Assembly (NCBI GenBank): GCA_902635545.1
Contig: CACPOL010000002.1
Coordinates: 1 to 64,000, forward strand
DNA from: an uncultured Pelagibacteraceae bacterium
Lineage (GTDB): Bacteria; Pseudomonadota; Alphaproteobacteria; Pelagibacterales; Pelagibacteraceae
DNA: 64,000 nt
Reading direction: 5' to 3'
Shown: positions 2,029 to 33,610 of the stretch, one piece after another
How positions within the stretch are numbered: position 1 is the first letter of the stretch
Layout of the letters: the number at the start of each line of letters is the position of its first letter
Made by a program: the position numbers and the translations under genes
The notes under the pieces: model-generated
What the model was told of the DNA's origin: nothing
What the model saw: only the letters and a program-made list of their open reading frames with translations
Database searches by the model: none

Positions 2029-2532
2029 TTACCTAATAATTGTCTCAGTTTTAAAAATTTTCATTCCTCTTGCTAAATAATTTTTTAGAGCGTTTTCATG
2101 ATCTAAATTGCAAGTATGTAGCCATGTTCTTCTTGATCCTTGATGGAAGGATTCTTTTATTGCATAAGATAATAGATAACCACCTAATTTTTTTCCAAAA
2201 TATTCTTCTAAAATTCCAAAATATGCGATTTCTATTTCTTTTTTATTTTTGTGTAAGATAAATTCAAAATATCCAACTAAATCATCACTATTTTTTAATA
2301 TATAAGTTATAACATTTTCATCTGAGACGTAATCAATCCATTTTTTTTCATTCCAAGCTAATCTATCAAACCATTCATATTTTTTTCCAATATTCTTATA
2401 AAAAAATTTATTTAGCTGAAAATCTTTTGAGCCTAATCTATTAATGCAATAATTTTCTGAGTCCTTTTTAACTTCTTTTAAGTCTTGAGGAGATCTTATC
2501 TCTAAAAAATATCTATTAATATTTCTTTTCAC
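2029..2532 (-). CDS. GNAT-family N-acetyltransferase
   Basis: Small (167 aa) acetyl-CoA-dependent acyltransferase of unknown substrate. The GNAT core is recognisable: beta strands around LVGYFEFIL (about 85-95), the EIAYFGILEEYFGKKLGGYLLSYA segment containing a degenerate acetyl-CoA loop (GKKLGG), and the late motif WLHTCNLDHENALKNYLARGMK typical of the family's C-terminal half. The start codon is GTG (2530-2532) and overlaps the HIT gene stop by four bases, so it is the last gene of the his-HIT transcript. Nothing in the context reveals the substrate. Confidence 0.82.
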   Translation of the reverse strand: MKRNINRYFLEIRSPQDLKEVKKDSENYCINRLGSKDFQLNKFFYKNIGKKYEWFDRLAWNEKKWIDYVSDENVITYILKNSDDLVGYFEFILHKNKKEIEIAYFGILEEYFGKKLGGYLLSYAIKESFHQGSRRTWLHTCNLDHENALKNYLARGMKIFKTETIIR

Positions 2533-2894
2533 TCAACCATTTTTCCTACTTTTTCTCCACCAAATAAATGAAAGTGTAAGTGGGGAACTTCTTGTCCTCC
2601 ATGTTCACTAATATTTGATAATGCTCTATAACCTTTACCATTATTGACTGATATTCCCAACTTTGTTGCTACAATATTTATTCCTTTTAATAATCCCACC
2701 ATCTCACCTGGAGAAGCTTTTTCACAAAAATCATCAAGATCAACATATTTTCCTTTGGGTATAACTAAAGCATGGATCTTTTTTTGGGGATTTATGTCGT
2801 AAAAGGATAAAACATAATCATCTTCATAAATTTTTTTACATGGAATTTCACCTCTTATAATTTTTGCAAAAATATTATTATTGTCGTAACTCAT
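2529..2894 (-). CDS. HIT-family nucleotide-binding hydrolase (HinT-like)
   Basis: Histidine-triad protein, in this family a purine nucleoside phosphoramidase or dinucleotide hydrolase acting in the cytoplasm. The protein is 121 aa, the normal HinT length; it begins FAKIIRGEIPCKKIYEDD, the standard HIT N-terminus, and carries the triad HLHFHLF at about residues 105-111. It overlaps hisE by four bases upstream and the acetyltransferase by four bases downstream, so it is co-transcribed with histidine genes. A functional link with HisE, which handles phosphoribosyl-ATP, is only an inference. Confidence 0.93.
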   Translation of the reverse strand: MSYDNNNIFAKIIRGEIPCKKIYEDDYVLSFYDINPQKKIHALVIPKGKYVDLDDFCEKASPGEMVGLLKGINIVATKLGISVNNGKGYRALSNISEHGGQEVPHLHFHLFGGEKVGKMVE

Positions 2895-3154
2895 TTTTTC
2901 CTTTTAACTAATTCTTTCATAACATCCTCAATTTTGATGTTATTTGCCTCTAAATAAACTGCAAGATGGTAGAGAACATCTGCACTTTCATGAACTTTAT
3001 TCGTATCTTTTTCTACTGACTCAATAAGTTCATTAATTTCCTCTAAAACCTTGGCTTTAATTAATGATCTATCATTAAGTAATCTATTTGTATACGAACC
3101 TTCAACTGGTTTTTTTTTTCTATTACGGATTATTTTAATTAATTCTTCAATCAT
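2891..3154 (-). CDS. hisE: Phosphoribosyl-ATP pyrophosphatase HisE
   Basis: Second step of histidine biosynthesis: hydrolyses PR-ATP to PR-AMP. The 87-residue all-helical MazG-like protein shows the expected acidic metal-binding helices (KVLEEINELIESVEKD and HESADVLYHLAVYLE). It is a stand-alone HisE; no HisI domain is fused and no hisI lies in the window, so the next step must be encoded elsewhere. It sits at the 3' end of the his cluster, separated from hisF by the inserted methyltransferase gene. Confidence 0.95.
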   Translation of the reverse strand: MIEELIKIIRNRKKKPVEGSYTNRLLNDRSLIKAKVLEEINELIESVEKDTNKVHESADVLYHLAVYLEANNIKIEDVMKELVKRKK

Positions 3155-3156
3155 TA

Positions 3157-4056
3157 TTAGCCATTAAACTTTTTTAAATTTTTTTTATAAAAAACACCTT
3201 GTCCTGTTGGTAAATTTACGAAGTGCCCGGACTTATTTGAGAAAAAATTATCAATTTTTAATCTTGTTTTTTCAAAGCCTCCATAATCATCAAACAAAAT
3301 TATACCATTATTTACAACTCTCTCATATAAAAACTCAAGAGAAGAAATAGTTGCCTCTTCTGAGTTTAAATCAATATGCAGCCAACTAATTTTATCGGGG
3401 TTTTGAGCTGTATCAAATATCTCTGGAATAAAACCTTTGTTGTATATTGAGTTATTTGAAAATTGTTTCAAATTATTTTTTGTAATTTCTATATCAAGAT
3501 AAGAATACTTAAATCTTAAATTTTCTTTTTTTTTTATAGATAAATCGGTCCAAGCATCATACATAAAACCTTTAAAATTTATTTTTTTTTTATCACATAA
3601 GCTCATTGCAAAGTTCATGGTTAAACCATCACAAACTCCACATTCAACAATATTTTTTTGATCTTCTTCAGTAAAATTTAATACATACAAAACCGAGTTA
3701 AAAACAACATAATGTCTCCAAGATAATTCCTCTAATATTTTACGATAATTTGCATCTTTATATTCAAATTGAGTTAAAAAGAATTTTCTATTTTGCACTC
3801 TTTCAATTAAATCTTTATTTATCTTATTAAAGATTACATTATTTTGCTCGGAAAGATTATTCCAAGGCGAACAAGTAAAATCAGTGGTCAAACCCCAGCC
3901 AGAAAAAGTCTTCTTTTTTTTTTTAAAATCTTTAAATTCGTAAAATTTTGGAAAAATTATTCTTAAAAAACTCTTTATCTTATTATTTATTTTACTTAAA
4001 AAAGAGTTTTTTATTTTTTTTTCTTTTGCGTTCAACACTCGCTCTATTTCAGACAT
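3157..4056 (-). CDS. TylF/MycF-like SAM-dependent methyltransferase, inserted in his operon
   Basis: Predicted methyltransferase of 299 aa. A Lys-rich N-terminal extension of about 60 residues precedes the core. The core has a Rossmann nucleotide-binding segment NIVECGVCDGLTMNFAMSL (about 135-153), the strand and loop KGFMYDAWTD, the conserved SWLHIDLNSEEATISSLEFLYERV stretch and the metal-site-like NNGIILFDDYGG, which is the TylF/macrocin O-methyltransferase pattern. Substrate unknown; relatives methylate sugars of macrolides or glycans. It lies two bases from hisE and three from hisF, so it is embedded in the histidine transcript although it has no known role there. Confidence 0.8.
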   Translation of the reverse strand: MSEIERVLNAKEKKIKNSFLSKINNKIKSFLRIIFPKFYEFKDFKKKKKTFSGWGLTTDFTCSPWNNLSEQNNVIFNKINKDLIERVQNRKFFLTQFEYKDANYRKILEELSWRHYVVFNSVLYVLNFTEEDQKNIVECGVCDGLTMNFAMSLCDKKKINFKGFMYDAWTDLSIKKKENLRFKYSYLDIEITKNNLKQFSNNSIYNKGFIPEIFDTAQNPDKISWLHIDLNSEEATISSLEFLYERVVNNGIILFDDYGGFEKTRLKIDNFFSNKSGHFVNLPTGQGVFYKKNLKKFNG

Positions 4057-7614: not shown

Positions 7615-8130
7615 ATGACTACTATTGTATTAATAAGAAAAAATAATGATGTTGTTGTGGCTGGAGATGGTCAAGTAAGTATGGGAAATACTGTAATAAA
7701 AAGCACGGCGTCAAAAGTAAGAAAAATTGAGAAAAGGAATGTCGTAGCAGGGTTTGCTGGATCAACAGCAGATGCACTGACTTTATTTGAACGCCTTGAG
7801 GCAAAGCTTGAAAAACATGCTGGTAATCTTTCTAGAGCAGCTGTTGAACTTGCCAAAGATTGGCGAACAGATAAATATTTAAGAAGATTAGAGGCACTAA
7901 TGGCAGTGGCTGATAAAGATCATAGCTATATAATTTCTGGAACAGGTGATGTATTAGAGCCTGAAGGGAATGCAATAGGAATTGGGTCAGGAGGAAATTA
8001 TGCTTTGGCAGCTGCCAAAGTCTTGTTAGATACTGATTTAAAAGCAGATGAAGTAGCAACAAAAGCAATAAAAGTCGCTTCTGAGATTTGTGTATTTACA
8101 AATAACAATATTAAAATTGAAAGAATTTAA
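7615..8130 (+). CDS. hslV: ATP-dependent protease subunit HslV
   Basis: Proteasome-like peptidase of the HslVU (ClpQY) complex. The initiator Met is followed by [20 protein letters not shown]; by family knowledge Met is removed and Thr2 becomes the N-terminal nucleophile. Length 171 aa is normal, and [18 protein letters not shown] and the sodium-site region [13 protein letters not shown] are conserved. Its stop overlaps the hslU start by one base (TAATG), coupling synthesis of the two subunits. Confidence 0.98.
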
Positions 8131-9503
8131 TGGAAAAGTCAAATATAACCAAACTAGTTCCAAAAGATAAAAATAACAATGAAGATAGCTCGTTAGTAAG
8201 TTCTTTATCTCCAAGAGAAATAGTTTCTGAACTAGATAGATTTGTTGTGGGGCAAAATAAAGCTAAAAAAGCAGTAGCTATTGCATTAAGAAACAGATGG
8301 AGAAGACAAGCTCTAAAAGGTGAAATGAAGAATGAAGTTTTACCAAAAAATATTTTAATGATCGGGCCAACAGGGGTTGGAAAAACAGAAATTTCAAGAA
8401 GATTATCAAAGTTGGCTGAAGCACCTTTTGTAAAAGTAGAAGCTACTAGATTTACAGAAGTTGGATACGTGGGTAGGGATGTTGAGCAAATTATAAGAGA
8501 TCTAATTGAAATTGCTATTGCTATGGAAAAAGTAAAAAAAAGAAAAGAAGTTTATGCAGAAGCTCAAAAAAGAGCTGAAGAAAAAGTCTTAGATGCCCTA
8601 GTTGGAGATAAAGCAAGTCTCGCTACAAGAGAAAGTTTTAGAAAGAGATTACGAAATGGAGATTTAGATGAAAATGAAATTGAGATAGCTGTTAGTGATA
8701 GTGGAAATAATGCTTCTTTTGAAATTCCAGGTATGCCTGGTGCAAATATTGGCATGATAAATATTAGTGATATGATTGGTAAATCAATTGGAGGTCAAAA
8801 AGAAAAAAAGAAAAAAATGACTGTGAAAGAGTCTCATGAAATATTGATAAATGATGAGTCAGATAAATTAATAGAACAGGACAAGATTATTAAGAAAGCA
8901 AAAATTTCGACAGAAAATAATGGAATAGTTTTTTTAGATGAAATAGATAAAATATCTGGAAGAACAGACAGAGTTGGTGGGGACGTATCAAGAGAAGGAG
9001 TCCAAAGAGATTTACTTCCATTAATTGAAGGAACTACTGTAAGTACAAAGTATGGGCCAATTAAAACAGATCACATATTATTTATTGCATCTGGTGCCTT
9101 TCAGTTAGCGAAACCATCAGATTTATTACCTGAGCTTCAGGGTCGATTACCAATCAGAGTTGAGCTAGAAGCTTTGACAAGTGATGATTTTAAGAGAATT
9201 TTGAAAGAACCAGACTACAGTTTAATAAAACAATATATAGCACTTCTTAAAACGGAAAACGTTGAATTAGAGTTTTCTGAAGATGGAATTGAGACAATAG
9301 CTAATATAGCTTCAGAAGTGAACTCAACAGTAGAAAATATTGGAGCTAGAAGACTCCAAACAATTATAGAAAAAATTTTAGATGATATAAGCTTCACAGC
9401 TACTGACCGATCTGGTGAAAAAATAATTATTAATTCTGAATATATTAAAAATAATCTTGGAAATTTAGTAAAAGATACAGACTTATCTAAATTTATTCTT
9501 TAA
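8130..9503 (+). CDS. hslU: HslU ATPase subunit of the HslVU protease
   Basis: AAA+ unfoldase that feeds substrates into HslV. 457 aa. Walker [10 protein letters not shown] (about 75-83), the pore-loop region [16 protein letters not shown], an intermediate I-domain (about 115-260, with a Lys-rich GQKEKKKKM stretch), Walker [12 protein letters not shown], sensor-2 region [14 protein letters not shown], and the C-terminal tail ending DLSKFIL that in this family docks into HslV. The 3' end overlaps the convergent smr gene by 11 bases. Confidence 0.98.
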
Positions 9504-10564: not shown

Positions 10565-10990
10565 ATGAAGCCATTATTTTTAATTATTGGAGTTCCTTTG
10601 ATAGAAATATACTTATTTATAAAAATTGGGGCAAAAATAGGTGCTTTTAATACTATTGCTTTAATTTTGATAACAGCAACCATGGGAATTCTGTATGCAA
10701 GATATGAGGGATTTAATACTTTAAAATCTGGGTTGTCTCAATTAATTAAAAATGAAATACCAGTTTATGAAATGCTTTCTGGCGCAGCTATTGCATTTGG
10801 AGCGATGCTATTGATATTACCCGGGTTTGCTACTGATTTTTTGGGTCTATTATTAATTATTCCATTTAGTAGAAAGCTCCTGTTCAAAAATATTTCAGAT
10901 AAATATAATAAAAAAGATACAATTAAAAAAAATTTCATAGAAGGCGAATATGAAGATTTAGATGATAATAATGATGACAGAAAATTATAA
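10565..10990 (+). CDS. fxsA: FxsA-family inner-membrane protein
   Basis: Polytopic protein of 141 aa, in E. coli associated with suppression of F-plasmid exclusion of phage T7; its true function is unknown. It starts MKPLFLIIGVPLIEIYLFIKIG, then has the TATMGILYARYEG motif, a further helix IAFGAMLLILPGFATDFLGLLLIIP and an acidic tail, all typical of FxsA. The 3' end overlaps secB. Confidence 0.92.
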   Translation: MKPLFLIIGVPLIEIYLFIKIGAKIGAFNTIALILITATMGILYARYEGFNTLKSGLSQLIKNEIPVYEMLSGAAIAFGAMLLILPGFATDFLGLLLIIPFSRKLLFKNISDKYNKKDTIKKNFIEGEYEDLDDNNDDRKL

Positions 10991-11396
10991 AATTCTCGCA
11001 GAATATATTAAAGATATGTCAAGTGAAACCCCTGATGTACAAACATATTTGTTTGTAAAAGATAATATTTCTAAATATCAGCTTAACATAGATATAAATT
11101 CTAGAGCTCTAAAAAATAAACTTATAGAAACAAATACAACACTTAAATTTGAGGATAAAGAAGCTAACGAAAAAAAATCTCATTTCGAAATTGTATATGC
11201 TACAATTGTGCAAGTTAATGAAAAAATCAAAGAAAAAGATGAATTAGAAAAGATTATTTTATGTGACATTCAAAACAAAATCTACCCAAATTTAGAAAAA
11301 GCATTTTTAAATTTACTTCATAATTCAGGTTTTCCAGGGATAAAATTTGAAAAAAAAATTGATTTTAATAAGTTATATAACGAAAAATTTAATTAA
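10974..11396 (+). CDS. secB: Protein-export chaperone SecB
   Basis: Tetrameric cytosolic chaperone delivering preproteins to SecA. About 140 aa from the ATG at 10974 (MTENYKILAEYIKDMSSETP); ATGs at 10962 and 10971 add only a few residues. The beta-sheet core (LNIDINSRAL, FEIVYATIVQVNE) and C-terminal helices (IYPNLEKAFLNLLHNSGFPG) match SecB, including the FPG segment. The gene overlaps fxsA by 17 bases and, at its 3' end, convergent dnaQ by eight bases. Confidence 0.93.
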   Translation: MTENYKILAEYIKDMSSETPDVQTYLFVKDNISKYQLNIDINSRALKNKLIETNTTLKFEDKEANEKKSHFEIVYATIVQVNEKIKEKDELEKIILCDIQNKIYPNLEKAFLNLLHNSGFPGIKFEKKIDFNKLYNEKFN

Positions 11397-12054
11397 AAAA
11401 ATTTTTTTTTAAATTTATCTTTAAATAATTTTTATGACTCTCAAGTTCTTTTTCTGAGGGCTTGACTACTTTTTTATAATAAATAATTTTTTGTGAAGGA
11501 AAATTAGAATTTTCATTTTCTAAATTTTGAAAATTTAAAGTTGGTTCTTTTTGATCAAGCAAATTAATATAAACCTTTGAAAGAAGTTCACAATCAATTA
11601 GAGCTGTATGCTGTTTTCTTCTTGAATTATCAATTCGATATCTCCTACACAATGAGTCTAGATTAATTTGAGAACCTGGAAATTTTTCTCTTGCTAATTT
11701 GAGTGTATCTATGACTTCATTATCTAGTGTATTTTTTTTAATTAATCTTAATTCATTATTTAAATGTGATAAATCAAACTCAGCGTTATGAATTATAAGT
11801 TTTTTTCCTTTTATAAAATTTAGAAAATCTTCTACAACTTCTGAAAATTTTTTTTTTGATGATAAAAATTCATCAGTATAACCGTGTACTTCAAGTGCTT
11901 TCTCTGAAACTTTTCTTTCAGGATTTAAATAACAATGAAATATATTTTTAGTTGGCACTAAATCTTCTAGCTCTATACAGCCAATTTCAACGATTCTATG
12001 TCCTTCTTTTACCGATAGTCCAGTAGTTTCAGTGTCTAAAACAATTTCTTTCAT
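11389..12054 (-). CDS. dnaQ: DNA polymerase III epsilon subunit (3'-5' proofreading exonuclease)
   Basis: Proofreading subunit of the replicative polymerase. 221 aa. DEDDh exonuclease motifs: IVLDTETTGL (ExoI, residues 4-13), IIHNAEFDLSHL (ExoII, about 92-103) and KQHTALIDCELLSKVY (ExoIII, about 156-171). The C-terminal part (after about 180) is the flexible region that in E. coli binds the alpha subunit. The start overlaps the coaE stop by one base. It lies in a minus block transcribed away from the candidate origin. Confidence 0.96.
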   Translation of the reverse strand: MKEIVLDTETTGLSVKEGHRIVEIGCIELEDLVPTKNIFHCYLNPERKVSEKALEVHGYTDEFLSSKKKFSEVVEDFLNFIKGKKLIIHNAEFDLSHLNNELRLIKKNTLDNEVIDTLKLAREKFPGSQINLDSLCRRYRIDNSRRKQHTALIDCELLSKVYINLLDQKEPTLNFQNLENENSNFPSQKIIYYKKVVKPSEKELESHKNYLKINLKKNFFN

Positions 12055-12623
12055 TATAAAATTTTTTTTAAAATATTCTTAACTTCTCTTTTAGCAGAAT
12101 TTTTTTTGAAATCATTTTTAATAATGTAAGTAGATTTTTTTTTCTTGAATTTTGTACTTTTTTGAATCTTTTTTAAAAAACTATAAATCTTGTGATTAAA
12201 ATTCTTTCTTTTTTTTAATCTAGTAGAAATTGTATTTTTTTTTGCATCTACGAAAACGAATATGTCATTTTTTTTTTCAAGTTTATTTTCTAAATACAAT
12301 GGAATATCTAATACAACTATTTTTTTAAGTTTATTCTTTTTTAAAAAAAGGTTCATTTTTTTTCTTACTAAAGGATGGATAGTTTTTGATAACTTCTTTA
12401 AATTCCATTTATTTTTTAATAACATCAAAATTATTTCTTTTTTTTTTATTGGAAATTTTTTGAAAAAATTAGGAAATTTTTTTTTTAACTTTTTAAAAAA
12501 ATACCTATCAAATTTATAAATTTTTGATACTTCTAAATCAGCATTGAAAACTGGATATCCAAAAAGTCTTGCTATAAAACTTTTTCCTGATCCAATTTCT
12601 CCCAAAATTATAATTTTTTTCAT
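12054..12623 (-). CDS. coaE: Dephospho-CoA kinase
   Basis: Last step of coenzyme A synthesis. 189 aa, P-loop GEIGSGKS (residues 8-15), substrate motif FNADLEVSKIYK, and LDIPLYLENKLEKKNDIFVFVDA in the position of the Walker B and CoA-binding region. The protein is unusually Lys-rich and the DNA unusually A/T-homopolymer rich, even for this genome, but the frame is intact. It overlaps aroE by four bases upstream and dnaQ by one base downstream. Confidence 0.93.
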   Translation of the reverse strand: MKKIIILGEIGSGKSFIARLFGYPVFNADLEVSKIYKFDRYFFKKLKKKFPNFFKKFPIKKKEIILMLLKNKWNLKKLSKTIHPLVRKKMNLFLKKNKLKKIVVLDIPLYLENKLEKKNDIFVFVDAKKNTISTRLKKRKNFNHKIYSFLKKIQKSTKFKKKKSTYIIKNDFKKNSAKREVKNILKKIL

Positions 12624-13417
12624 TTTTTTAATATCCTTATAATTTCTTCATCGATTTCGGGTAAAATATTGTTCCAAATTTTAAAAGCTAGTTGTGCTTG
12701 ATATAAAAACATCATCAAACCATTTTCAATATTATTGTCATTTTTTTTTGCATCTTTTAAAAATTGTGTTTGATTGGGTTTATATATGACATCATAAAAC
12801 AATATTTTATTTTTAATTTTACTAAAATCTAAATCAATTTTATCTGTTGAATTTAAACCTAAGCTAGTTCCATTTATAATTAAATCACAATCAGTGGGCA
12901 ATGTTCCCCAATCAATAATTTCCAATGTATCGAACTCTTTTTTTAATTCTAAAGCTTTTTCTTTAGTTCTATTGGTTAATAATATATTAGATATACCAAG
13001 TTGTTTAAGAGCTATAATCAACGACGGTGCTACACCTCCGGCACCTAAAATTAATGCTTTTTTATTTTTTACAGGAAAATTTATTTTTTTAAGCGCTAAC
13101 TGAAATCCAGGTATGTCAGTGTTATCACCTATAATTTTATTATTTTTTTTAAAAACAGTATTTACTGAATTCGCTTCCTTGGCCAAAGGTGTTAGTTCAT
13201 CTAAAAAAGAGATTACTTTTTTTTTAAATGGTACAGTTACATTCATTCCATCTATTTTTCCTAACCTTAAATTTTTTACAACATTAGAGATTTCATTTTC
13301 TTCAATCAAAGATTTTTCATACATTGCATCAATCTTGTTTCTTTTAAACCACAGGTTATGAATTGTTGGTGAAAGGGAATGCTTAACTGGATTTCCAATA
13401 ATCAAGTACTTTTTCAT
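12620..13417 (-). CDS. aroE: Shikimate dehydrogenase
   Basis: Reduces 3-dehydroshikimate with NADPH in aromatic amino-acid synthesis. 265 aa, normal length. Shikimate-binding residues occur in HSLSPTIHNLWF (about 13-24), GMNVTVPFKKKV with the catalytic Lys (about 58-69), and GDNTDIPGF. The NADP-binding loop is ILGAGGVAPSL, followed by LTNRTKEKA. It belongs to the dnaQ-coaE-aroE-maf operon. Confidence 0.97.
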   Translation of the reverse strand: MKKYLIIGNPVKHSLSPTIHNLWFKRNKIDAMYEKSLIEENEISNVVKNLRLGKIDGMNVTVPFKKKVISFLDELTPLAKEANSVNTVFKKNNKIIGDNTDIPGFQLALKKINFPVKNKKALILGAGGVAPSLIIALKQLGISNILLTNRTKEKALELKKEFDTLEIIDWGTLPTDCDLIINGTSLGLNSTDKIDLDFSKIKNKILFYDVIYKPNQTQFLKDAKKNDNNIENGLMMFLYQAQLAFKIWNNILPEIDEEIIRILKK

Positions 13418-13437
13418 TTTTTTAAAACCTTTATTAA

Positions 13438-14028
13438 TTATTTATAACTATTTAAATATTCTTTAATTTTTTTAACAGGCAGCCCCATAATTGTATTTTC
13501 ATCTCCTTCGATTTTAGAAAATAACGTTTTTCCTTCCCCCTCAATTTGATACACATTGTAAGCGTAAAGATTTTCATCTGATATTTTTGATAAATATTTT
13601 TGCAAATCTTTAGTCGAAAATTGTTTCATAGTTAAAAGAGCTTTATCAGTATAATTCCAAATCATTGACCCGTTTAAAGAAATACAAACCGAGCTTATAA
13701 GATTATGTGTTTTTCCATTTAAATCCTCTAATATTTCTAAAGCTTTAATTCTATTAAGTGGCTTTGAAATTATTTTTCCTTCTAGATCTATAACGCTATC
13801 AGCACCTAAAACTAGTATATTAGAATTTAGCTTACTTATTTTATTTGCTTTAAGTTCTGCTAAATTTTTTGATATTAATTCTGGAGTTGCATTTTCTCTC
13901 AATAAGCTTTCTTTGATATCGTCTTCATTGATATTTGAAGGTTTAACACTTACTCTAATACCATTTTTGATCAATATTTTCTTTCTCACATTACTTTTAG
14001 AAGCAAGAATTAGATCATTTTTTTTCAT
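13438..14028 (-). CDS. maf: Maf-family nucleotide pyrophosphatase
   Basis: House-cleaning nucleoside triphosphate pyrophosphatase, in the family acting on dTTP/UTP or modified nucleotides. 196 aa. Start ILASKSNVRKKIL replaces the more usual SASPRRxxLL signature, a modest divergence; the central LVLGADSVIDLEGKIISKP and LEDLNGKTHNLISSVC, and YAYNVYQIEGEG with ENTIMGLP, are conserved. It overlaps ppsR by 14 bases, so the two are translationally linked. Confidence 0.92.
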   Translation of the reverse strand: MKKNDLILASKSNVRKKILIKNGIRVSVKPSNINEDDIKESLLRENATPELISKNLAELKANKISKLNSNILVLGADSVIDLEGKIISKPLNRIKALEILEDLNGKTHNLISSVCISLNGSMIWNYTDKALLTMKQFSTKDLQKYLSKISDENLYAYNVYQIEGEGKTLFSKIEGDENTIMGLPVKKIKEYLNSYK

Positions 14029-14842
14029 TTTTATATATTTCGTGTATTTTAATTATTGAGGCAGCAGTTTCTTCAACAGATTTGCGTGTAACATCTATTG
14101 TGGGCCAATTATATTTCTTAAAAGTTTTCTTTGCTTCATCAACTTCTTTTTTAATTTTTTCTATGTTAGTATAATTTATATTTTCAGTTTCTTTCAAAGA
14201 GTTCATTCTATTTTTTCTAATTTCCACCAACCTTTCGGCTTCTGATGTTAGACCAATTACACAGGATAATTTAGGATCTTTTTTTAAAATATCCGGTATA
14301 GATTTTTCATTTACTAATGGAATGTTAGATGTTTTAAATCCTCTATTTGCTAAATAAATTGATGTTGGGGTTTTGCTTGTTCTGCTAACTCCTAATAAAA
14401 TTAAATCTGATTTATGTATTTCGTTAATTAGGTTACCGTCATCATGATTCATCGTAAATTGAATTGCCTCGATTCTTTCATAATATTCCTCGTTTAATGC
14501 ATGCTGACCACTTGGTATGTGCGAAGCTTTTTGATTTAACAATTTAGAGAAACTCAATATTAAATTTCCTAAAACTCCAAAACATGGAATTTTTTTTTCA
14601 TCACTTTGATTTGCAAGAAACTTAGCCAAATTATTATCTACAATTGTATATAGAATTATAGAATTTTCTTTTTTTGAAGCTGTATCTAATATTTTTAATA
14701 TTTGGTTCTCTGTTCTAGTAAAAAAAAATGAGTTTATTTTATAGTTTATATTTTTAAACTGTGCTTTGATAGCTAAAAAAACTCTATCCAAAGTTTCTCC
14801 AGTAGAATCGGATATTAGATATATATTATATGTATTGGTCAT
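14015..14842 (-). CDS. ppsR: Pyruvate,phosphate dikinase / PEP synthase regulatory kinase-pyrophosphorylase (DUF299)
   Basis: Bifunctional ADP-dependent kinase and Pi-dependent pyrophosphorylase that switches PPDK or PEP synthetase off and on. 275 aa. Signature IYLISDSTGETLDRVF at the N-terminus, HALNEEYYERIEAIQFTMNHDDG, and a P-loop GVSRTSKTPTS (about 152-162). It is the first gene of the minus-strand operon leaving the candidate origin at 14843-15126. No PPDK gene is in the window. Confidence 0.95.
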   Translation of the reverse strand: MTNTYNIYLISDSTGETLDRVFLAIKAQFKNINYKINSFFFTRTENQILKILDTASKKENSIILYTIVDNNLAKFLANQSDEKKIPCFGVLGNLILSFSKLLNQKASHIPSGQHALNEEYYERIEAIQFTMNHDDGNLINEIHKSDLILLGVSRTSKTPTSIYLANRGFKTSNIPLVNEKSIPDILKKDPKLSCVIGLTSEAERLVEIRKNRMNSLKETENINYTNIEKIKKEVDEAKKTFKKYNWPTIDVTRKSVEETAASIIKIHEIYKNEKK

Positions 14843-15126
14843 GAATAAAATGTTAATAGTTGTGTATTAATTTTAATAAGTTTAGCATTTTAAATTATTT
14901 TATTTTCTTTTTGTAAAAGTGTTTTTTTATCAACATAAACAAACATGTTTACTAATAATATACATTTTATCTAATAAATATAAATAGAGCTTCAATTTAA
15001 GCAATATTATAGGATAAGATTAAGTAGTATTTGTTAGTAATTAGTGAAAAAAATGTGAAAAACAAATAATCACCGTTATTCACATATTATATTACTAATA
15101 CTATAATTAAATATTTATTAATTATT
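14843..15126. other. Candidate chromosomal replication origin (oriC)
   Basis: The longest gene-free stretch of the window, lying between ppsR and hemE. In alphaproteobacteria such as Caulobacter the origin lies beside hemE, close to rho-mnmE-mnmG-parAB. It contains one consensus DnaA box (15076-15084), three one-mismatch boxes (14861-14869, 14927-14935, 15054-15062) and an almost pure A/T stretch after 15082 that could unwind. Minus-strand operons leave to the left and plus-strand operons to the right, as expected for leading-strand genes. Assignment rests on synteny, boxes and gene direction; no skew was computed. Confidence 0.6.
15076..15084 (+). promoter_or_regulatory. Consensus DnaA box TTATTCACA
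   Basis: The nonamer TTATTCACA matches the consensus TTATNCACA at all positions. It is placed 42 bases before the hemE start and immediately before an A/T-only region. Near matches with one mismatch are TGTGTATTA (14861), TTATCAACA (14927) and TGTGAAAAA (15054). Confidence 0.6.
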
Positions 15127-16128
15127 ATGACACCAATTAGAAAAGTAATTAAGGAAAATAAATCAAATAATATACCCATTTGGATAATGAGGCAGGCTGG
15201 TAGATATTTACCTGAATTTAGAGAGATTAGGAAAAAGAATCCAGATTTTATAAAACTATGTTTAGATTCAACAATTTCAACCGAAATCACTCTTCAACCT
15301 ATTAGAAGGTATGGTTTTGATGCTGCAATAATTTTTTCAGATATATTAATGATTCCATATGGAATGGGACAGAAAGTAGAGTTTAAAAAAGATTTTGGAC
15401 CGCAACTAGGTGCCTTGAATATTAATGATATATTAAAAATTAATGAAGAAACCTTTGTTAAAAAATTATCTCCAATTTATGAACTAATAAAGAATCTTAA
15501 AAATAATAAAGATTTAAACAATAGAGATATTATTGGTTTTGTGGGAGCTCCCTGGACTTTATTAGTTTACATGATTAATAAAATTTCACCAAAAAATGGA
15601 TTGAACAATCTGTTTTTTAAGGATGAAGATTTAATAGAAAAAATTTTAATTGTTTTAGATAAATTCATTAAACTTCATATCAAAAATCAAATTAAAGCTG
15701 GCGCAACAGTAATTCAAATTTTTGATAGTTGGGCAGGACTATTATCAAAGGATTTAGAAAGATTTATTTATAAACCAACAATTTCTCTTGTAGAATATGT
15801 GAAAAGTTTAAATGTACCAGTAGTTTGTTTTCCAAGACAAATTATTAATTATGTAGATTTTTGTAACGTTGTTAATCCAGACATGATAAGTATAGATTAT
15901 AATATTAATCCTAAATATTTATTAAATAAAATAAATATTCCAATTCAAGGAGGTCTAGATCCTAAAGTGTTGTTAACAAATAAAGAAAATTTAAAAAAAG
16001 AAACTATCAAATATTTAGAATTATTTAAAAACCATCCCTACGTTTTTAATTTAGGGCATGGAATTTTACCAGAAACTAATACTGATATGGTGGAAGAATT
16101 AGTAAATATTGTTAGGTCATATAAATGA
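15127..16128 (+). CDS. hemE: Uroporphyrinogen decarboxylase
   Basis: Heme pathway enzyme converting uroporphyrinogen III to coproporphyrinogen III. 333 aa. The PIWIMRQAGRYLPEFR signature (about 19-34) provides the substrate-binding Arg residues; IIFSDILMIPYGMG carries the catalytic Asp; GFVGAPWTLLVYMI and FNLGHGILPET are also conserved. First gene of hemE-hemH-hemJ, overlapping hemH by four bases (ATGA). Confidence 0.98.
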   Translation: MTPIRKVIKENKSNNIPIWIMRQAGRYLPEFREIRKKNPDFIKLCLDSTISTEITLQPIRRYGFDAAIIFSDILMIPYGMGQKVEFKKDFGPQLGALNINDILKINEETFVKKLSPIYELIKNLKNNKDLNNRDIIGFVGAPWTLLVYMINKISPKNGLNNLFFKDEDLIEKILIVLDKFIKLHIKNQIKAGATVIQIFDSWAGLLSKDLERFIYKPTISLVEYVKSLNVPVVCFPRQIINYVDFCNVVNPDMISIDYNINPKYLLNKINIPIQGGLDPKVLLTNKENLKKETIKYLELFKNHPYVFNLGHGILPETNTDMVEELVNIVRSYK

Positions 16129-17120
16129 TAAATGATCATCCAAAAGTAAAATTTGGCAAGACAGGTGTATTAATAATTAACTTGGGAACTCCTGACTCAA
16201 CCAGTTGGTTTGATATTAGAAAATATTTAAAAGAATTCTTATCTGACAAAAGAGTCATTGAAGTGAACCCACTTATTTGGCAAATTATTTTAAATTTATT
16301 TATTCTAACCTTTAGGCCTTCTAAAACCGCAAAGGCTTATAAAGAAATTTGGATGAAAGAAGAAAACATTTCTCCTCTTTTATACTATACAAAAAAACAG
16401 AGTGAAAAACTTTCAAAGCAAATATCCAATGATGATGTAATTGTAGATTTCGCAATGAGATATGGGAATCCGAGTATTAGAGATAAAATCAGCAAATTAC
16501 ACAATCAAGGATGTGAGAATTTAGTTATACTTCCATTATACCCTCAATATGCAGCACCAACTACTGCAACAGTATGTGATGAAGTATATAGAACATTAAT
16601 GAAAATGAGATGGCAACCATCTTTAAAAATTATTCCTCATTACGAGTCAAATCCGCTTTATATTGATGCTTTAGTTAATTCTATAAATGAAAAATTAAAA
16701 AAAATAAGCTGGAAACCAGATTTAATAATAGCTTCTTATCATGGAGTACCAAAAAAATATTTTGATAAAGGAGATCCCTATCACTGTTATTGTCATAAAA
16801 CAACTCGGCTTATTAGTGAAAAATTTAAATTAATTGAAATTAAAACTACATTTCAATCTAGATTTGGTCCAGATGAATGGCTAAAACCTTATACAGATAA
16901 AACATTAGAAAATTTACCCAAGGAAGGAAAAAAAAATATTTTAATCATATGTCCTGGCTTTGCATCAGATTGTGTTGAAACCTTAGAAGAAATTTTAATT
17001 CAGGGAAAGGAAAGCTTTATGGATTCCGGTGGTGAAAATTTTGATATGATTCCTTGCCTGAATGATAATGATGATCATATAATTTTACTAAGAAAACTTA
17101 TTGAAAAAGCTATTTTATAA
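16125..17120 (+). CDS. hemH: Ferrochelatase
   Basis: Inserts ferrous iron into protoporphyrin IX. 331 aa. It has GVLIINLGTPDS at the N-terminus, RYGNPSI, LPLYPQYAAPTTATV, the metal-site His in IIASYHGVPKKYF (about 203-215), and the acidic proton-conducting segment CPGFASDCVETLEEI. An additional CHCYC-like stretch, YHCYCHKTTRLI, follows. It abuts hemJ directly, so three consecutive heme steps share one transcript. Confidence 0.97.
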   Translation: MINDHPKVKFGKTGVLIINLGTPDSTSWFDIRKYLKEFLSDKRVIEVNPLIWQIILNLFILTFRPSKTAKAYKEIWMKEENISPLLYYTKKQSEKLSKQISNDDVIVDFAMRYGNPSIRDKISKLHNQGCENLVILPLYPQYAAPTTATVCDEVYRTLMKMRWQPSLKIIPHYESNPLYIDALVNSINEKLKKISWKPDLIIASYHGVPKKYFDKGDPYHCYCHKTTRLISEKFKLIEIKTTFQSRFGPDEWLKPYTDKTLENLPKEGKKNILIICPGFASDCVETLEEILIQGKESFMDSGGENFDMIPCLNDNDDHIILLRKLIEKAIL

Positions 17121-17552
17121 ATGAATTTATATCTTCTTTTTAAGTCTCTTCATTTAATAGCAGTAATTTCTTGGATGGCTGGTTTACTATATCTACCTAG
17201 AATATTTGTATATCACTCAGAAAATAAAAATGAAATAATCACTTCTGTATTTAAAACAATGGAGAGAAAATTATTTTTTTTTATAATGATGCCAGCAATG
17301 ACTTTAAGCTGGATATTTGGTTTGTTACTAATATCCGAAATTGGTTTTGCTCAATTAAGTAATTTTTGGTTAAAAATGAAATTATTATTGGTTGTTTTAT
17401 TAACTTTATATCACTTTTATTTGGGCTATCTTTTAAAAAAGTTTTCATTAGATGATAATAAAAAATCATCTAAATTTTATAGATATTTGAACGAAATACC
17501 TACATTATTGCTAATTTTAATAGTTTTTATTGTAGTATTTAAACCACTCTAA
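17121..17552 (+). CDS. hemJ: Protoporphyrinogen IX oxidase HemJ (UPF0093 membrane protein)
   Basis: Membrane protein of 143 aa with four predicted transmembrane helices. It carries the HemJ pattern: LHLIAVISWMAGLLYLPRIFVYH near the N-terminus with the conserved His, then WLKMKLLLVVLLTLYHFYLG with a second His and the Lys. In alphaproteobacteria and cyanobacteria HemJ replaces HemG/HemY. Position after hemE and hemH strongly supports the heme role. Confidence 0.93.
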   Translation: MNLYLLFKSLHLIAVISWMAGLLYLPRIFVYHSENKNEIITSVFKTMERKLFFFIMMPAMTLSWIFGLLLISEIGFAQLSNFWLKMKLLLVVLLTLYHFYLGYLLKKFSLDDNKKSSKFYRYLNEIPTLLLILIVFIVVFKPL

Positions 17553-17554
17553 GG

Positions 17555-17582
17555 TTGAATTTTTAAAATGAGTATATATATT
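17555..17582 (+). promoter_or_regulatory. Putative sigma-70 promoter for rho
   Basis: A -35-like TTGAAT (17555-17560) and a -10-like TATATT (17577-17582) are 16 bases apart, in the 62-base gap between hemJ and rho. The same two hexamers at the same spacing occur upstream of nusA. Transcription would start about 26 bases before the rho ATG. Sequence match only. Confidence 0.5.
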
Positions 17583-17614
17583 AAAACTATCTTAAATTCC
17601 TTAATATAAAAATC

Positions 17615-18883
17615 ATGAACATTCAAGAACTAAAATTGAAATCCTCGGAACAGTTGATCGCACAAGCTGAAAAATTAGGAATAGAAAATGCGAGTACATT
17701 AAGAAAACAAGAAATTTTATTTGCAATATTAAAAAAAGTTGCAGAAAAAGAGGAAATTACTGGAGCAGGTGTATTACAATTACTTCAAGATGGCTTTGGA
17801 TTTCTAAGAGCTATGGAGTCAAATTATTTACCAGGTCCTGATGATATTTATGTAAGTCCCAGTCAAATAAGAAAATTTGGTTTAAGAACTGGAGACACAG
17901 TTGAAGGACCTGTGAGAGCGCCTAAAGAAGGTGAGAGATATTTTGCTTTATTACAAGTTAGTAAAATAAATTTTGAAGACCCAGAAAAGGCTCGTCATAA
18001 GATAGCCTTTGATAACTTAACTCCTCTTTATCCTGATAAACAATTAGTTATGGAAGTTGAAACTATTAAAATAGAGAAAAAACAAGACCTTACTCCACGT
18101 TTAATTGATTTGGTAAGTCCAATTGGAAAAGGACAAAGATCAATAATTATTTCTCCTCCAAAGGCAGGAAAAACAATGATTTTACAAAGTATAGCAAATT
18201 CAATTGCTAAGAATTATCCAGAATGTTATCTGATTGTTTTATTAATCGACGAGAGACCCGAAGAAGTCACTGATATGCAAAGAACAGTCAAAGGAGAGGT
18301 AATAAGCTCAACTTTCGATGAACCAGCTCAAAGACACGTTGCTGTTGCGGAAATGGTAATTGAAAAAGCAAAAAGACTTACAGAACATAAAAAGGATGTT
18401 GTTATACTTTTAGACTCAATAACAAGATTAGGCAGAGCTTATAACGCTGTTATTCCTAGCTCTGGTAAGGTTTTAACTGGTGGTGTAGATGCGAACGCTT
18501 TACAAAGACCAAAAAGATTTTTTGGTGCAGCAAGAAATATTGAAGAGGGCGGCTCACTAACAATTATTTCAACTGCTTTAATAGATACTGGAAGCAGGAT
18601 GGATGAAGTAATTTTCGAAGAATTTAAAGGCACTGGTAATAGTGAGACTGTACTTGATAGAAAAATTGCAGATAAAAGAATTTATCCAGCAATTGATATA
18701 ACTAAATCAGGAACAAGAAGAGAAGAATTATTATTTAATAAGGATGATTTACAAAAAATGAATGTTCTTAGAAGAATTATTGCTCCTATGGGCACAATGG
18801 ATGCAATTGAGTTTATTAATTCAAAATTAAAAGATACTAAAAATAATTCAGAATTTTTTAATTCGATGAATAAACCGGTTTAA
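17615..18883 (+). CDS. rho: Transcription termination factor Rho
   Basis: Hexameric RNA-dependent ATPase helicase that ends transcription. 422 aa. Rho N-terminal domain (1-48), OSB cold-shock RNA-binding domain with [16 protein letters not shown] (about 50-65), Walker A SPPKAGKT (about 180-187), [15 protein letters not shown] and the R-loop region [11 protein letters not shown]. It matters here because most convergent gene pairs leave no room for intrinsic terminators. Its stop interlocks with that of the convergent sulfotransferase gene through a shared TTAA (18880-18883). Confidence 0.98.
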
Positions 18884-20415
18884 GATTGAAGTTCTTTTTT
18901 GAGATTTTCAAGTTGATTTGAAAATTTTTCCCATTTTTTTACAGATGTATTATAGATTGGCTCTCTTACTTGGGCTACACTAGCTGTTGAAACTGTCTTT
19001 TTATTTTTATGAAATTCAAGACAATTTTTATCCCAATTTAATTCACAAAATTTAAGCAGTTTTTTTGTTTCATCTTCTAAATTATTCACTAGATTTTCGT
19101 ATTTTAATTCAAAGATATTTTCTTTAAACTCTTTGTTCCAAAAATCCATTAATTCATCATATAATTTATAATATGATGATAAGGATTTAAAATTATAACT
19201 ATAATCTTGAAGACTTGAACTAAAAGTATTTTTAAAATTAGACCAGCAAATATCCATAGGGTCTCGTTTACAATGTATAATTTTTGAATTAGGAAAAGCT
19301 TTTATAATAAATCCTATCCATCTAAAATTTAACGGGGCTTTGTCAATTATATATTCCTGATTGTAATCAAAAAAACTTAATTTTGAAATATAATCTTTTT
19401 GTATTTTATTTAATTCGTCTTTTTTTATTCTTTTTAAATTAGGTTTTAGAATATTTTTATCGATAGTTTGTGATAAAAAAGAAAGCTCCCCTGCTCCATA
19501 AACTTTATCATGGGATGAGAGAATTTGTTCTACTAAGGTTGTTCCAGATCTAGGCATTCCAACTATAAAAATTATTTTTCGTGTTGCATCACTTAAATTG
19601 TCTATTTGATTTAAGTCAAATAAATTTTTTAGATTTTGAAATAACTTCTTATCTTTTTCAATGTCATATTTTTTAACCTTACTTAAAATATCATTTCCAC
19701 TTTTATAACAATTAAATGCTTTTTGATATTCCTTAATATCCTCATAAGCTTTACCCAATGAAAAATTTAATTGTGCTAAATTAGATTCGTTAGAAATATT
19801 ATTAATTTTTTTTTCTAAAGATTTTAGATGCATATCATCTTTACTTTTGTATTTATGTATTTGGCTTAAAGATTTGTCTGCTGAAGTATTATTAGGATTA
19901 TTTTCTAAAATTTTTAAATAAATTTTTTCAGCCTCTGTAAAATCACCAATTTGGCTATAACAATGGGCTAATGAAATATTAATTGCCTCAAGATCCTTAT
20001 TTATTTTAAGAGCTGTTAAATAAAGTTCTTTAGCTTCTTGGCTTTTGTTTTGTCTCATTTTCAAATTACCTAGATTAACGAGAGAATCAATATAATCTGG
20101 TTTTAATTTTAGAGCTTCCTTAAAATATTTTTCTGCCTCTATATCCTCTCCCGAAGTAGATAACACTAATCCTAAATTATTTATGACAAATATATTATTT
20201 GGATTTTGTTTAAGACATCTTTTTAAAAGATTTTTTGCTTCATCAAATTTTTTAAGTTGATTGTATGCTAATGAGACTGCATTATAAAAAACGACTTGAT
20301 CTGGAAATTTTTTAATAAGTGGAATTCCTTTATCAATTAATTCTTCATATTTTTTAACATTATAAAGATTGATAAGTATTGTAGCTTTTTGTTTAAGATA
20401 ATCTATATTTTCCAT
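18880..20415 (-). CDS. TPR-repeat sulfotransferase
   Basis: 511-residue two-part protein. Residues about 1-250 are tandem tetratricopeptide repeats (for example [20 protein letters not shown] and the following helices); residues about 275-500 are a PAPS-dependent sulfotransferase with the 5'-phosphosulfate loop [15 protein letters not shown] (about 285), the 3'-phosphate motif [15 protein letters not shown] (about 380-394) and the terminal [20 protein letters not shown]. Substrate unknown; relatives modify glycans or proteins. It is a lone minus-strand gene inside the otherwise plus-strand rho-mnmE block, so it looks like an insertion into the conserved origin region. Confidence 0.9.
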
Positions 20416-23834: not shown

Positions 23835-24478
23835 TGCACGAAGATTTGTTAAAAAATTACCAATTGATAAAGGATCTCAATGTTTCACGTGAAACTTGTA
23901 TAGATTTTGAGCAATATATATCGTTAATATTAGATGAGAATAGAAAAATAAATATTATTAGTAAAAAAAATGCTAATAAAGAGATGATAAGAACAAGGCA
24001 CATAATGGATTCATCGCAAATCGTTGATTTTGTTAATTTAAATTACAATACAACCTATGATTTAGGATCTGGGGGTGGATTTCCAGGAATAGTTCTCGCA
24101 ATAATGCTCAAAAATATTAAAAAAGATATGAAATTTGTTTTAATTGAAAAAAGTTTTCGCAAAAGTGAATTTTTAAAGCTTGTATCTAAAAAACTTAATT
24201 TAAATACAGAAATAATCCAAAAAGATATTTTTAAATTAAAAAATTTAAAAACTGGAACAATAGTTTCTAGAGCATTTAAACCATTACCCATTTTATTGGA
24301 CTTAATAAATAATAATTTTAGGAAATATAAAAACATTATTCTATTTATGGGTACTAATGGAAAAAAAATTTTAAACATAACACAAAAAAATTGGAAAATG
24401 GAATTTGTTAAAAAAGAAAGCTTAACCTCAAGTAATTCTTTTTTTTTAAATATTGAAAAAATTAAAAAATTAACATGA
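23834..24478 (+). CDS. rsmG: 16S rRNA m7G527 methyltransferase RsmG (GidB)
   Basis: SAM-dependent methylation of G527 in 16S rRNA. 214 aa. It has NVSRET near residue 17, RHIMDSSQIVDF, the SAM loop DLGSGGGFPGIVLAIM (about 76-91), FVLIEKSFRKSEFL and VSRAFKPLPILLDL. The codons for NVSRET form a parS centromere site (see 23881-23896). It overlaps parA by four bases, so modification and segregation genes are one transcript. Confidence 0.96.
   Translation: MHEDLLKNYQLIKDLNVSRETCIDFEQYISLILDENRKINIISKKNANKEMIRTRHIMDSSQIVDFVNLNYNTTYDLGSGGGFPGIVLAIMLKNIKKDMKFVLIEKSFRKSEFLKLVSKKLNLNTEIIQKDIFKLKNLKTGTIVSRAFKPLPILLDLINNNFRKYKNIILFMGTNGKKILNITQKNWKMEFVKKESLTSSNSFFLNIEKIKKLT
23881..23896. promoter_or_regulatory. 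parS centromere-like site inside rsmG
   Basis: TGTTTCACGTGAAACT matches the 16-bp ParB site TGTTTCACGTGAAACA at 15 of 16 positions, with the palindromic core GTTTCACGTGAAAC perfect. It lies about 1.4 kb upstream of parB and about 8.9 kb from the candidate origin. ParB spreading from here would load partition complexes and SMC. It is the only such site I found in the window. Confidence 0.88.
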
Positions 24479-33122: not shown

Positions 33123-33610
33123 GATATAATTATTTTTGTTCTTTTATTAATTAATTTTAATAAAATAAAAAAATCTTTTTTTTTAAGTGCTATACATCCT
33201 TTTGTTTTTTTATAATTTTTTGTTAGATGAATAAAAATTGCGCTTCCTTTGTATGGAATTATTTTTTTTGTATTATAATTTAGTGGTATCAAAAAATCAT
33301 AGATATTATCCTTTCTATATAATTTTTCGCATTTGATATTTTTACCTAATGTACATTCTTTGTTATAATATTTACTTTTTGGGTCATCACACCAACCCAT
33401 TTTAGGAATTATAAACTTTGTTTTTATTTTAGTTTTGGGTTTATTTTCTCTATCCTTTCTAAAATATAATTTACCAAGGGTAAATTTTCCTTTTGGTGTA
33501 GATCTGTCACCCTCTACTTTTTTTGATTTGATGCCATTTTCTCCGATAACACATTTTAAAGCGAAATCGCCAATAATTAAGGTGTCTTTATTTTTTAGCC
33601 TTATTAGCAT
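33119..33610 (-). CDS. L,D-transpeptidase (YkuD/ErfK family)
   Basis: Single YkuD catalytic domain, 163 aa. The active-site motif is present as SAIFIHLTKNYKKTKGCIALKK: the His and the Cys nucleophile of the HxxxxxxxxxxGC signature (about 125-142). STPKGKFTLGKLYFRKDR is the usual upstream motif. No signal peptide or membrane anchor is visible, which is seen in the alphaproteobacterial short version. The family forms 3-3 peptidoglycan cross-links or attaches proteins. Start is 13 bases from the divergent regulator. Confidence 0.9.
   Translation of the reverse strand: MLIRLKNKDTLIIGDFALKCVIGENGIKSKKVEGDRSTPKGKFTLGKLYFRKDRENKPKTKIKTKFIIPKMGWCDDPKSKYYNKECTLGKNIKCEKLYRKDNIYDFLIPLNYNTKKIIPYKGSAIFIHLTKNYKKTKGCIALKKKDFFILLKLINKRTKIIIS

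Follow-up and report, generated by a model that had tools for sequence, protein, structure and literature searches.

The non-coding gap between ppsR and hemE is very probably the DnaA-dependent oriC of this uncultured Pelagibacteraceae (SAR11) bacterium. A first-pass annotation had nominated the gap as a candidate origin, and that reading is now backed by computed features: its place among neighboring genes and the conservation of that place, clustering and fixed registers of DnaA boxes, a periodic trio-like tract, DNA instability, proximity to parS and gene-strand bias. The window, meaning the whole stretch of DNA analyzed, is 64,000 bases long and represents bases 1-64000 of contig C2 (158,616 b) in a 968-kb, 30-contig, 82%-complete genome.

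Gene neighborhood and its conservation

14843..15126, no strand: candidate oriC, the non-coding ppsR-hemE gap, 284 bases from ATG to ATG
14015..14842, minus strand: ppsR (Kinase-PPPase), PF03618, E 7.2e-89
15127..16128, plus strand: hemE, uroporphyrinogen decarboxylase, PF01208, E 2.3e-82

The reported gap length of 284 bases is exact, counted from the ppsR ATG (minus strand) to the hemE ATG (plus strand). Its description as unusual in a nearly gapless genome also holds: counting ORFs of at least 60 aa, only one of the window's 34 non-coding gaps is larger, and only four of the contig's 90, which have a median of 30.5 b. GC content is 16.2% in the gap versus 27.8% in the window. The longer one, at 33123-33434 (312 b by ORF count) and thus the window's largest, is without a relaxed DnaA box as defined below. 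Operons were said to point away from the gap, which is true of the nearest genes (11389-14842 to the left, 15127-18883 to the right) but fails farther out, where genes at 7615-9503 and 10565-11396 (plus) and 18880-20415 (minus) are aimed towards it.

Farther from the gap lie maf, aroE, coaE and an RNase_T-type exonuclease on one flank, and hemH, a UPF0093 protein, ORFs that we take from their sequence to be rho-, mnmE- and mnmG-like, and rsmG on the other. The dnaA gene (C2:78558-79970) is 64 kb from the gap. We equate PF03618 with DUF299/COG1806, the gene bordering published alphaproteobacterial origins. The origins of Caulobacter and Rickettsia are reported to sit between hemE and COG1806 (PMC1914354), and the PF01208 and PF03618 flanks seen here match that neighborhood, in keeping with the earlier remark that the gap adjoins hemE as in other alphaproteobacteria. 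The gap is thus flanked by hemE and a COG1806/DUF299 gene, as is the alphaproteobacterial hemE-COG1806 origin.

A first set of 61 genomes (our own and 60 relatives) yielded a HemE match in 51, of which 30 belong to the same genus; in all 30 genus loci, window included, ppsR and hemE diverge across 261-285 b. Thirteen named HemE relatives, all uncultured Pelagibacteraceae, show 52-67% identity, which places the organism in the SAR11 group. In a larger set that overlaps the first (115 genomes, our own and 114 of the genus, with completeness of at least 90% asked), HemE was detected in 111/115 and PpsR in 110/115. The two genes are divergent on one contig in all 110 genomes with both, at a median hit-to-hit distance of 300 b, and the gap is of normal size in 109. 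In the exception, G115, they are 1.7 kb apart.

DnaA boxes occupy fixed registers

Under the consensus TTATNCACA, the one perfect box reported earlier (15076-15084) is present, as are the three one-mismatch boxes, 14927-14935 on the plus strand and 14861-14869 and 15054-15062 on the minus strand. Contig-average expectations per 284 b are 0.01 perfect and 0.37 one-mismatch boxes, the gap itself having a higher A/T content than the contig as a whole. Under the strict consensus TTATCCACA, the gap contains no perfect and two one-mismatch boxes. The strict count over the whole window, considered as a signal, was rejected as chance (20 matches versus 20.5 in shuffles); consequently, only clustering within the gap is meaningful.

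Comparisons used a relaxed box, TTATNNACA, searched as TTATN[ACT]ACA, in 42 gaps comprising the 30 first-set genus loci (window included) and 12 of the 13 named loci; L072 was excluded because its hemE is truncated by a contig end. The 42 gaps are related to each other, with an effective number of 23.4 at 75% identity. They carry 3.02 relaxed boxes per gap versus 0.37 in dinucleotide shuffles (sd 0.09, 40 rounds), with at least three boxes in 29/42 and two exact boxes in the window's own gap. No exact relaxed box was found in L070 or L071 in the 42-gap scan, and the terminal box of L074 is unrecognizable in the alignment of gaps. Nine further genomes outside the 42 (L157-L164 and L166) have 1, 4, 1, 4, 4, 4, 3, 3 and 1 relaxed boxes; L165, L167 and L168 stand outside all gap counts.

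Over the 460 kb sampled from G012, a complete relative, 284-b segments with three boxes occur only over the ppsR-hemE gap. In the contig, the only non-coding pair of neighboring boxes within 284 b is in the gap, the three other pairs being coding. The six largest contig gaps include that between ppsR and hemE; among the other five, one has a single box and four, including the gap upstream of dnaA, have none. The gap therefore has the box cluster of a DnaA-dependent bacterial oriC.

Across the 42 gaps, boxes (at most 1 mismatch to TTATNNACA) hold fixed registers; the background rate is 0.014 per position.

14851..14859, minus strand: DnaA-box register CTATTAACA, 1 mismatch to TTATNNACA; at most 1 mismatch in 36/42 gaps
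14927..14935, plus strand: DnaA-box register TTATCAACA, exact relaxed box; at most 1 mismatch in 37/42
14946..14954, minus strand: weak box-like register TAGTAAACA, uncertain, 2 mismatches
15032..15040, minus strand: DnaA-box register TTACTAACA, 1 mismatch; at most 1 mismatch in 27/42
15043..15051, minus strand: DnaA-box register TTTTTCACT, 2 mismatches in the window; at most 1 mismatch in 25/42
15054..15062, minus strand: DnaA-box register TTTTTCACA, 1 mismatch; at most 1 mismatch in 20/42
15076..15084, plus strand: hemE-proximal DnaA box TTATTCACA; at most 1 mismatch in 38/42, 28 exact

The hemE-proximal box is the most conserved block of the gap (highest mean information). Minus-strand registers at 15032, 15043 and 15054 are spaced by 11 b, about one helical turn. 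Near the weak register at 14946, exact boxes fall at gap positions 104-106 in 11/42 sequences and at the single column 14947 in 0/42. Alignment with kin thus gives six or seven registers, several degenerate in this species. The box set had been called sparse and the origin minimal; it looked sparse because most registers are degenerate here. The aligned gaps show a degenerate set, not a reduced one, and the gloss of a minimal origin is unsupported.

Residues 20-461 of the genome's DnaA can be aligned with the 8btg DnaA chain, which we take to be that of B. subtilis; the RDHTT motif seen in that chain, presumably the part that reads the box, is intact.

A trio-like tract and the contig's least stable 40-mer adjoin the hemE-proximal box

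15089..15103, plus strand: DnaA-trio-like tract ATA TTA CTA ATA CTA (minus strand 3'-TAT AAT GAT TAT GAT-5')
15085..15124, no strand: probable unwinding element, less stable than any other 40-mer of the 158.6-kb contig
15079..15107, plus strand: sigma-70-like promoter candidate for hemE (TTCACA, 17 b, TATAAT), overlapping the box and the trio tract

Downstream of box 15076, conservation recurs every three bases: A occupies offsets 7, 10, 13 and 16 in 0.87-0.96 of weighted sequences, and T occupies offsets 6, 9, 12 and 15 in 0.63-0.79. Four NTA repeats at box offsets 5-16 match at 6.48 of 8 positions versus 3.33 elsewhere in the same gaps, with at least 6 of 8 in 35/42 sequences, and offset 5 is unsurpassed over the scanned range of -59 to +30. 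Exact trio runs are hardly longer than in shuffles (2.98 versus 2.67 per sequence), so the claim of a trio tract rests on positional conservation.

The minus strand of the tract resembles the DnaA-trio, 3'-GAT-5'; written from the opposite strand, a perfect trio is 5'-CTA-3' (PMC8235120). To identify a basal unwinding system (BUS), the published rule calls for a box, a 0-16 b spacer and at least three trios (3'-NAN-5'), with box-to-trio distances peaking at 10-13 b (PMC8287927). Allowing up to 2 mismatches in the box, the window shows TTATTCACA (1 mismatch to TTATCCACA), a 4 b spacer and five trios, a combination easily reached in such A/T-rich DNA. The central adenine of the trio is reported to matter in B. 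subtilis (PMC10721633); in the window's family it is present in 63-79% and is not the best conserved base. A BUS at the gap is probable, judging by this conserved pattern.

None of the 158,577 contig 40-mers is computed to be less stable than 15085-15124; at other lengths the region is not extreme, being undercut by 9 segments of 30 b, 30 of 50 b and 977 of 60 b. By computed instability, then, a probable unwinding element adjoins the boxes, as in a DnaA-dependent oriC. An A/T-only stretch noted earlier is real (15102-15128, 27 b); the window contains 58 A/T-only runs of at least 20 b, the longest being 44 b. The -10 positions of the hemE promoter candidate (offsets 18-23) vary among kin.

CtrA, IHF and GANTC sites

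15107..15121, no strand: TTAA-N7-TTAA match, judged fortuitous, single copy in the gap

This single match corrects the statement that the gap has no TTAA-N7-TTAA site. The motif is present in 19/42 gaps, at 0.57 per gap versus 0.25 in mononucleotide shuffles. We do not take this enrichment for a CtrA signal and ascribe it to TTAA within boxes such as TTATTAACA, the putative cause. With CtrA model NF045991, no protein of four genomes passed (best 133 versus a cut-off of 350 bits), the model being of Rhodobacter form and passed by only 1/14 control genomes. One published comparison lists no ctrA orthologue for Pelagibacter (PMC2877005). Absence of CtrA control is plausible.

The IHF consensus is not found in the window's gap and occurs in 4/42 gaps, a frequency equal to that in shuffles (0.10 and 0.10), so that the gap shows no IHF site. 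GANTC is likewise missing from the window's gap and is rarer over the 42 gaps than in mononucleotide shuffles (0.05 versus 0.34 per gap, sd 0.08). Pelagibacter GANTC is reported to be methylated, with a methylated fraction that in one strain declines from origin to terminus (PMC9516812).

Chromosome-scale signals

23881..23896, no strand: parS-like site TGTTTCACGTGAAACT, 1 mismatch, inside rsmG, 8.9 kb from the gap

Searched with the familiar parS consensus, the contig gives a next-best match with 3 mismatches. Among seven single-contig genomes of the genus, four complete relatives were sampled (G012, G064, G168 and G065; 1.66 Mb in total). The sampled DNA holds four parS-like sites of 2 mismatches or fewer, two of them in G064 and the others in G012 and G065; each lies on the hemE side of the gap, at a distance of 6.9-8.2 kb. 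No such site was found in G168, whose hemE-side flank is outside the sampled DNA. The leading-strand coding fraction peaks at +28 (G012), 0 (G064), -41 (G168) and -12 kb (G065) from the gap, placing the peak of gene-strand bias within 41 kb in 4/4 relatives.

Base skew is less uniform. A cumulative GC-skew minimum had been expected at the gap; within the window it falls near 44-46 kb instead. For the relatives, we fitted models of third-codon-position GC and AT skew with an antipodal terminus, the sign of the AT skew (more A on the leading strand) being fixed after G012 had been seen. In G012 the modeled origin lies at +8 (GC) and -2 kb (AT), with 2-log-likelihood support from -17 to +48 and from -32 to +8 kb, respectively, and 298/300 bootstrap best points fall within 100 kb of the gap. 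In G168 it lies at -11 (GC) and -76 kb (AT), with the gap 2.3 and 2.1 log units under the best point. The G065 fits (GC +233, AT -52 kb) are nearly flat and bring little gain (1.4 and 4.6), and those of G064 (GC +525, AT +530 kb) go against its own strand bias and parS, perhaps owing to rearrangement or weak skew. Best points for GC and AT combined are -2 (G012), -11 (G168), -52 (G065) and +530 kb (G064), and interpolated raw GC-skew minima fall at +31 (G012), +121 (G064), -26 (G168) and +165 kb (G065). When stretch order was shuffled, the best point came within 20 kb of the gap in 5/100 (G012) and 3/100 (G168) trials, within 51 kb in 13/100 (G065) and within 530 kb in 80/100 (G064). Third-codon skew in the sampled relatives thus places the origin roughly at the gap in G012 and G168, a fit in 2/4; it is weak in G065 and indicates another place in G064. 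Base skew is partly discordant with the gap; strand bias and parS are concordant with it.

At four-fold sites, the GC skew of G012 favors a different axis and was judged uninformative. A search for dif with the familiar pattern stayed at the level of reversed controls (3 versus 6 in G000, 6 versus 4 in G012) and left the terminus unplaced.

A similar element in the sister family

In a sister family of the order, PF03618 was found in 0/24 genomes searched. HemE hits numbered 21, and 20 loci were fetched (L076-L095; G055 left out); these are closely related and mostly carry one genus label. In 20/20 loci a maf-like ORF, named by eye, faces hemE over about 250-280 b. The order before hemE is a box-like ...CACA or ...AACA, GG (19/20), a spacer, C-W-A repeats and TATATA-like DNA. 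Within the C-W-A tract, C is invariant in the 20 loci at offsets 11 and 17, as is A at 10, 13, 16 and 19; at offsets 10, 13 and 16 the repeats are in phase with those of the window's family. The trio central adenine is present in 35%, 95% and 35% at three trios. From this shared order and phase, we take the hemE element of the sister family to be the same origin, kept without ppsR.

Alternative explanations

That the gap is merely a divergent ppsR/hemE promoter region with regulator sites, the origin lying elsewhere nearby, is very improbable. A divergent gene pair does require promoters, and a good sigma-70-like candidate (TTCACA-17-TATAAT, 15079-15107) overlaps the best box; yet the strongest three-base periodicity in conservation lies between its -35 and -10, where a promoter has no need of it, and the -10 itself varies. 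Moreover, the conserved blocks are DnaA boxes in both orientations spread over the gap, parS and strand bias center on it, and like elements persist in the sister family, where ppsR was not found (0/24). Readability as boxes on both strands also weighs against a structured RNA or riboswitch for hemE, which the conservation of non-coding DNA ahead of a biosynthetic gene might otherwise suggest; Rfam over 14500-15500 returned one sub-threshold match (mir-1892, E 0.26), which lies in ppsR and not in the gap, and we give an RNA almost no credence.

Equally close to negligible is the probability that the true origin adjoins dnaA, as in many bacteria. A 290-b non-coding gap does sit immediately upstream of dnaA (C2:78268-78557), but it contains no relaxed box, more than 50 kb separates dnaA from parS in both G012 and the contig, and the G012 dnaA, 63 kb from the ppsR-hemE gap, is beyond the 2-log-likelihood support of both skews.

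A model for the origin and its relation to known systems

With the ppsR-hemE gap as oriC, we infer the following course of initiation. DnaA would bind the six or seven relaxed boxes (TTATNNACA), including those at 15032, 15043 and 15054 (minus) and 15076-15084 (plus). A DnaA filament would grow from box 15076-15084 onto the minus strand of the three-base repeats at 15089-15103 and open the A/T-rich DNA at 15085-15124 beside hemE, where helicase would be loaded and replication would begin. Segregation of the newly copied origins would fall to ParB, acting on parS sites that lie 7-9 kb from the gap towards hemE. The model requires no role for CtrA.

E. coli oriC, with R1 and arrayed low-affinity boxes, is probably alike in having a terminal box that faces the unwinding region and an array of degenerate boxes; it differs in its neighbors, and the window's gap is without an IHF consensus. 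The Caulobacter/Rickettsia type has the same hemE-COG1806 flanks, an A/T-rich gap and DnaA boxes (PMC1914354). Caulobacter oriC is described there with five CtrA sites and an IHF site, whereas the SAR11 gap has one chance-like CtrA match and no IHF consensus. The origin is of the known alphaproteobacterial hemE-side kind, lacking an IHF site and apparently also Caulobacter's CtrA control. As in the BUS, first shown in B. subtilis, a box and a short spacer are followed by three or more 3'-NAN-5' motifs, carried by the strand that pairs with that of the box. The origin differs from the BUS in that the first motif comes 4 b and the first perfect 5'-CTA-3' 10 b past the box, T stands opposite the trio's central adenine in only 63-79% of weighted sequences, and the genus has no GC-rich spacer.

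Modest surprises are the drifting center of the trio-like tract, the avoidance of GANTC and the similar origin of a family without ppsR. One could speculate, at rather long odds, that Pelagibacterales have a CtrA-free origin with a drifted trio code, 3'-G[A/T]T-5', in which the outer bases and not the central adenine are fixed, and from which GANTC has been purged, so that timing would be set by DnaA alone. A compact, apparently CtrA-free alphaproteobacterial origin would suit experiments on what DnaA alone requires. No title among the literature matches listed describes a SAR11 oriC sequence, a statement about those titles and not about the literature at large. The study PMC9589681 was anchored on an empirical coverage minimum (terminus), with oriC and dnaA absent from its main text; a sequence-level origin map offers such work a fixed anchor.

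Genomes with unusual loci

In G080, G109, G124 and G147 (completeness 92-96%), neither hemE nor ppsR was found, perhaps reflecting a putative assembly gap at the origin. In G115 (L156, G115:C2:71500-76500), two additional ORFs at 2153-3414 lie between the hemE-side origin and ppsR; ppsR is broken into two frames, and four relaxed boxes remain with hemE.
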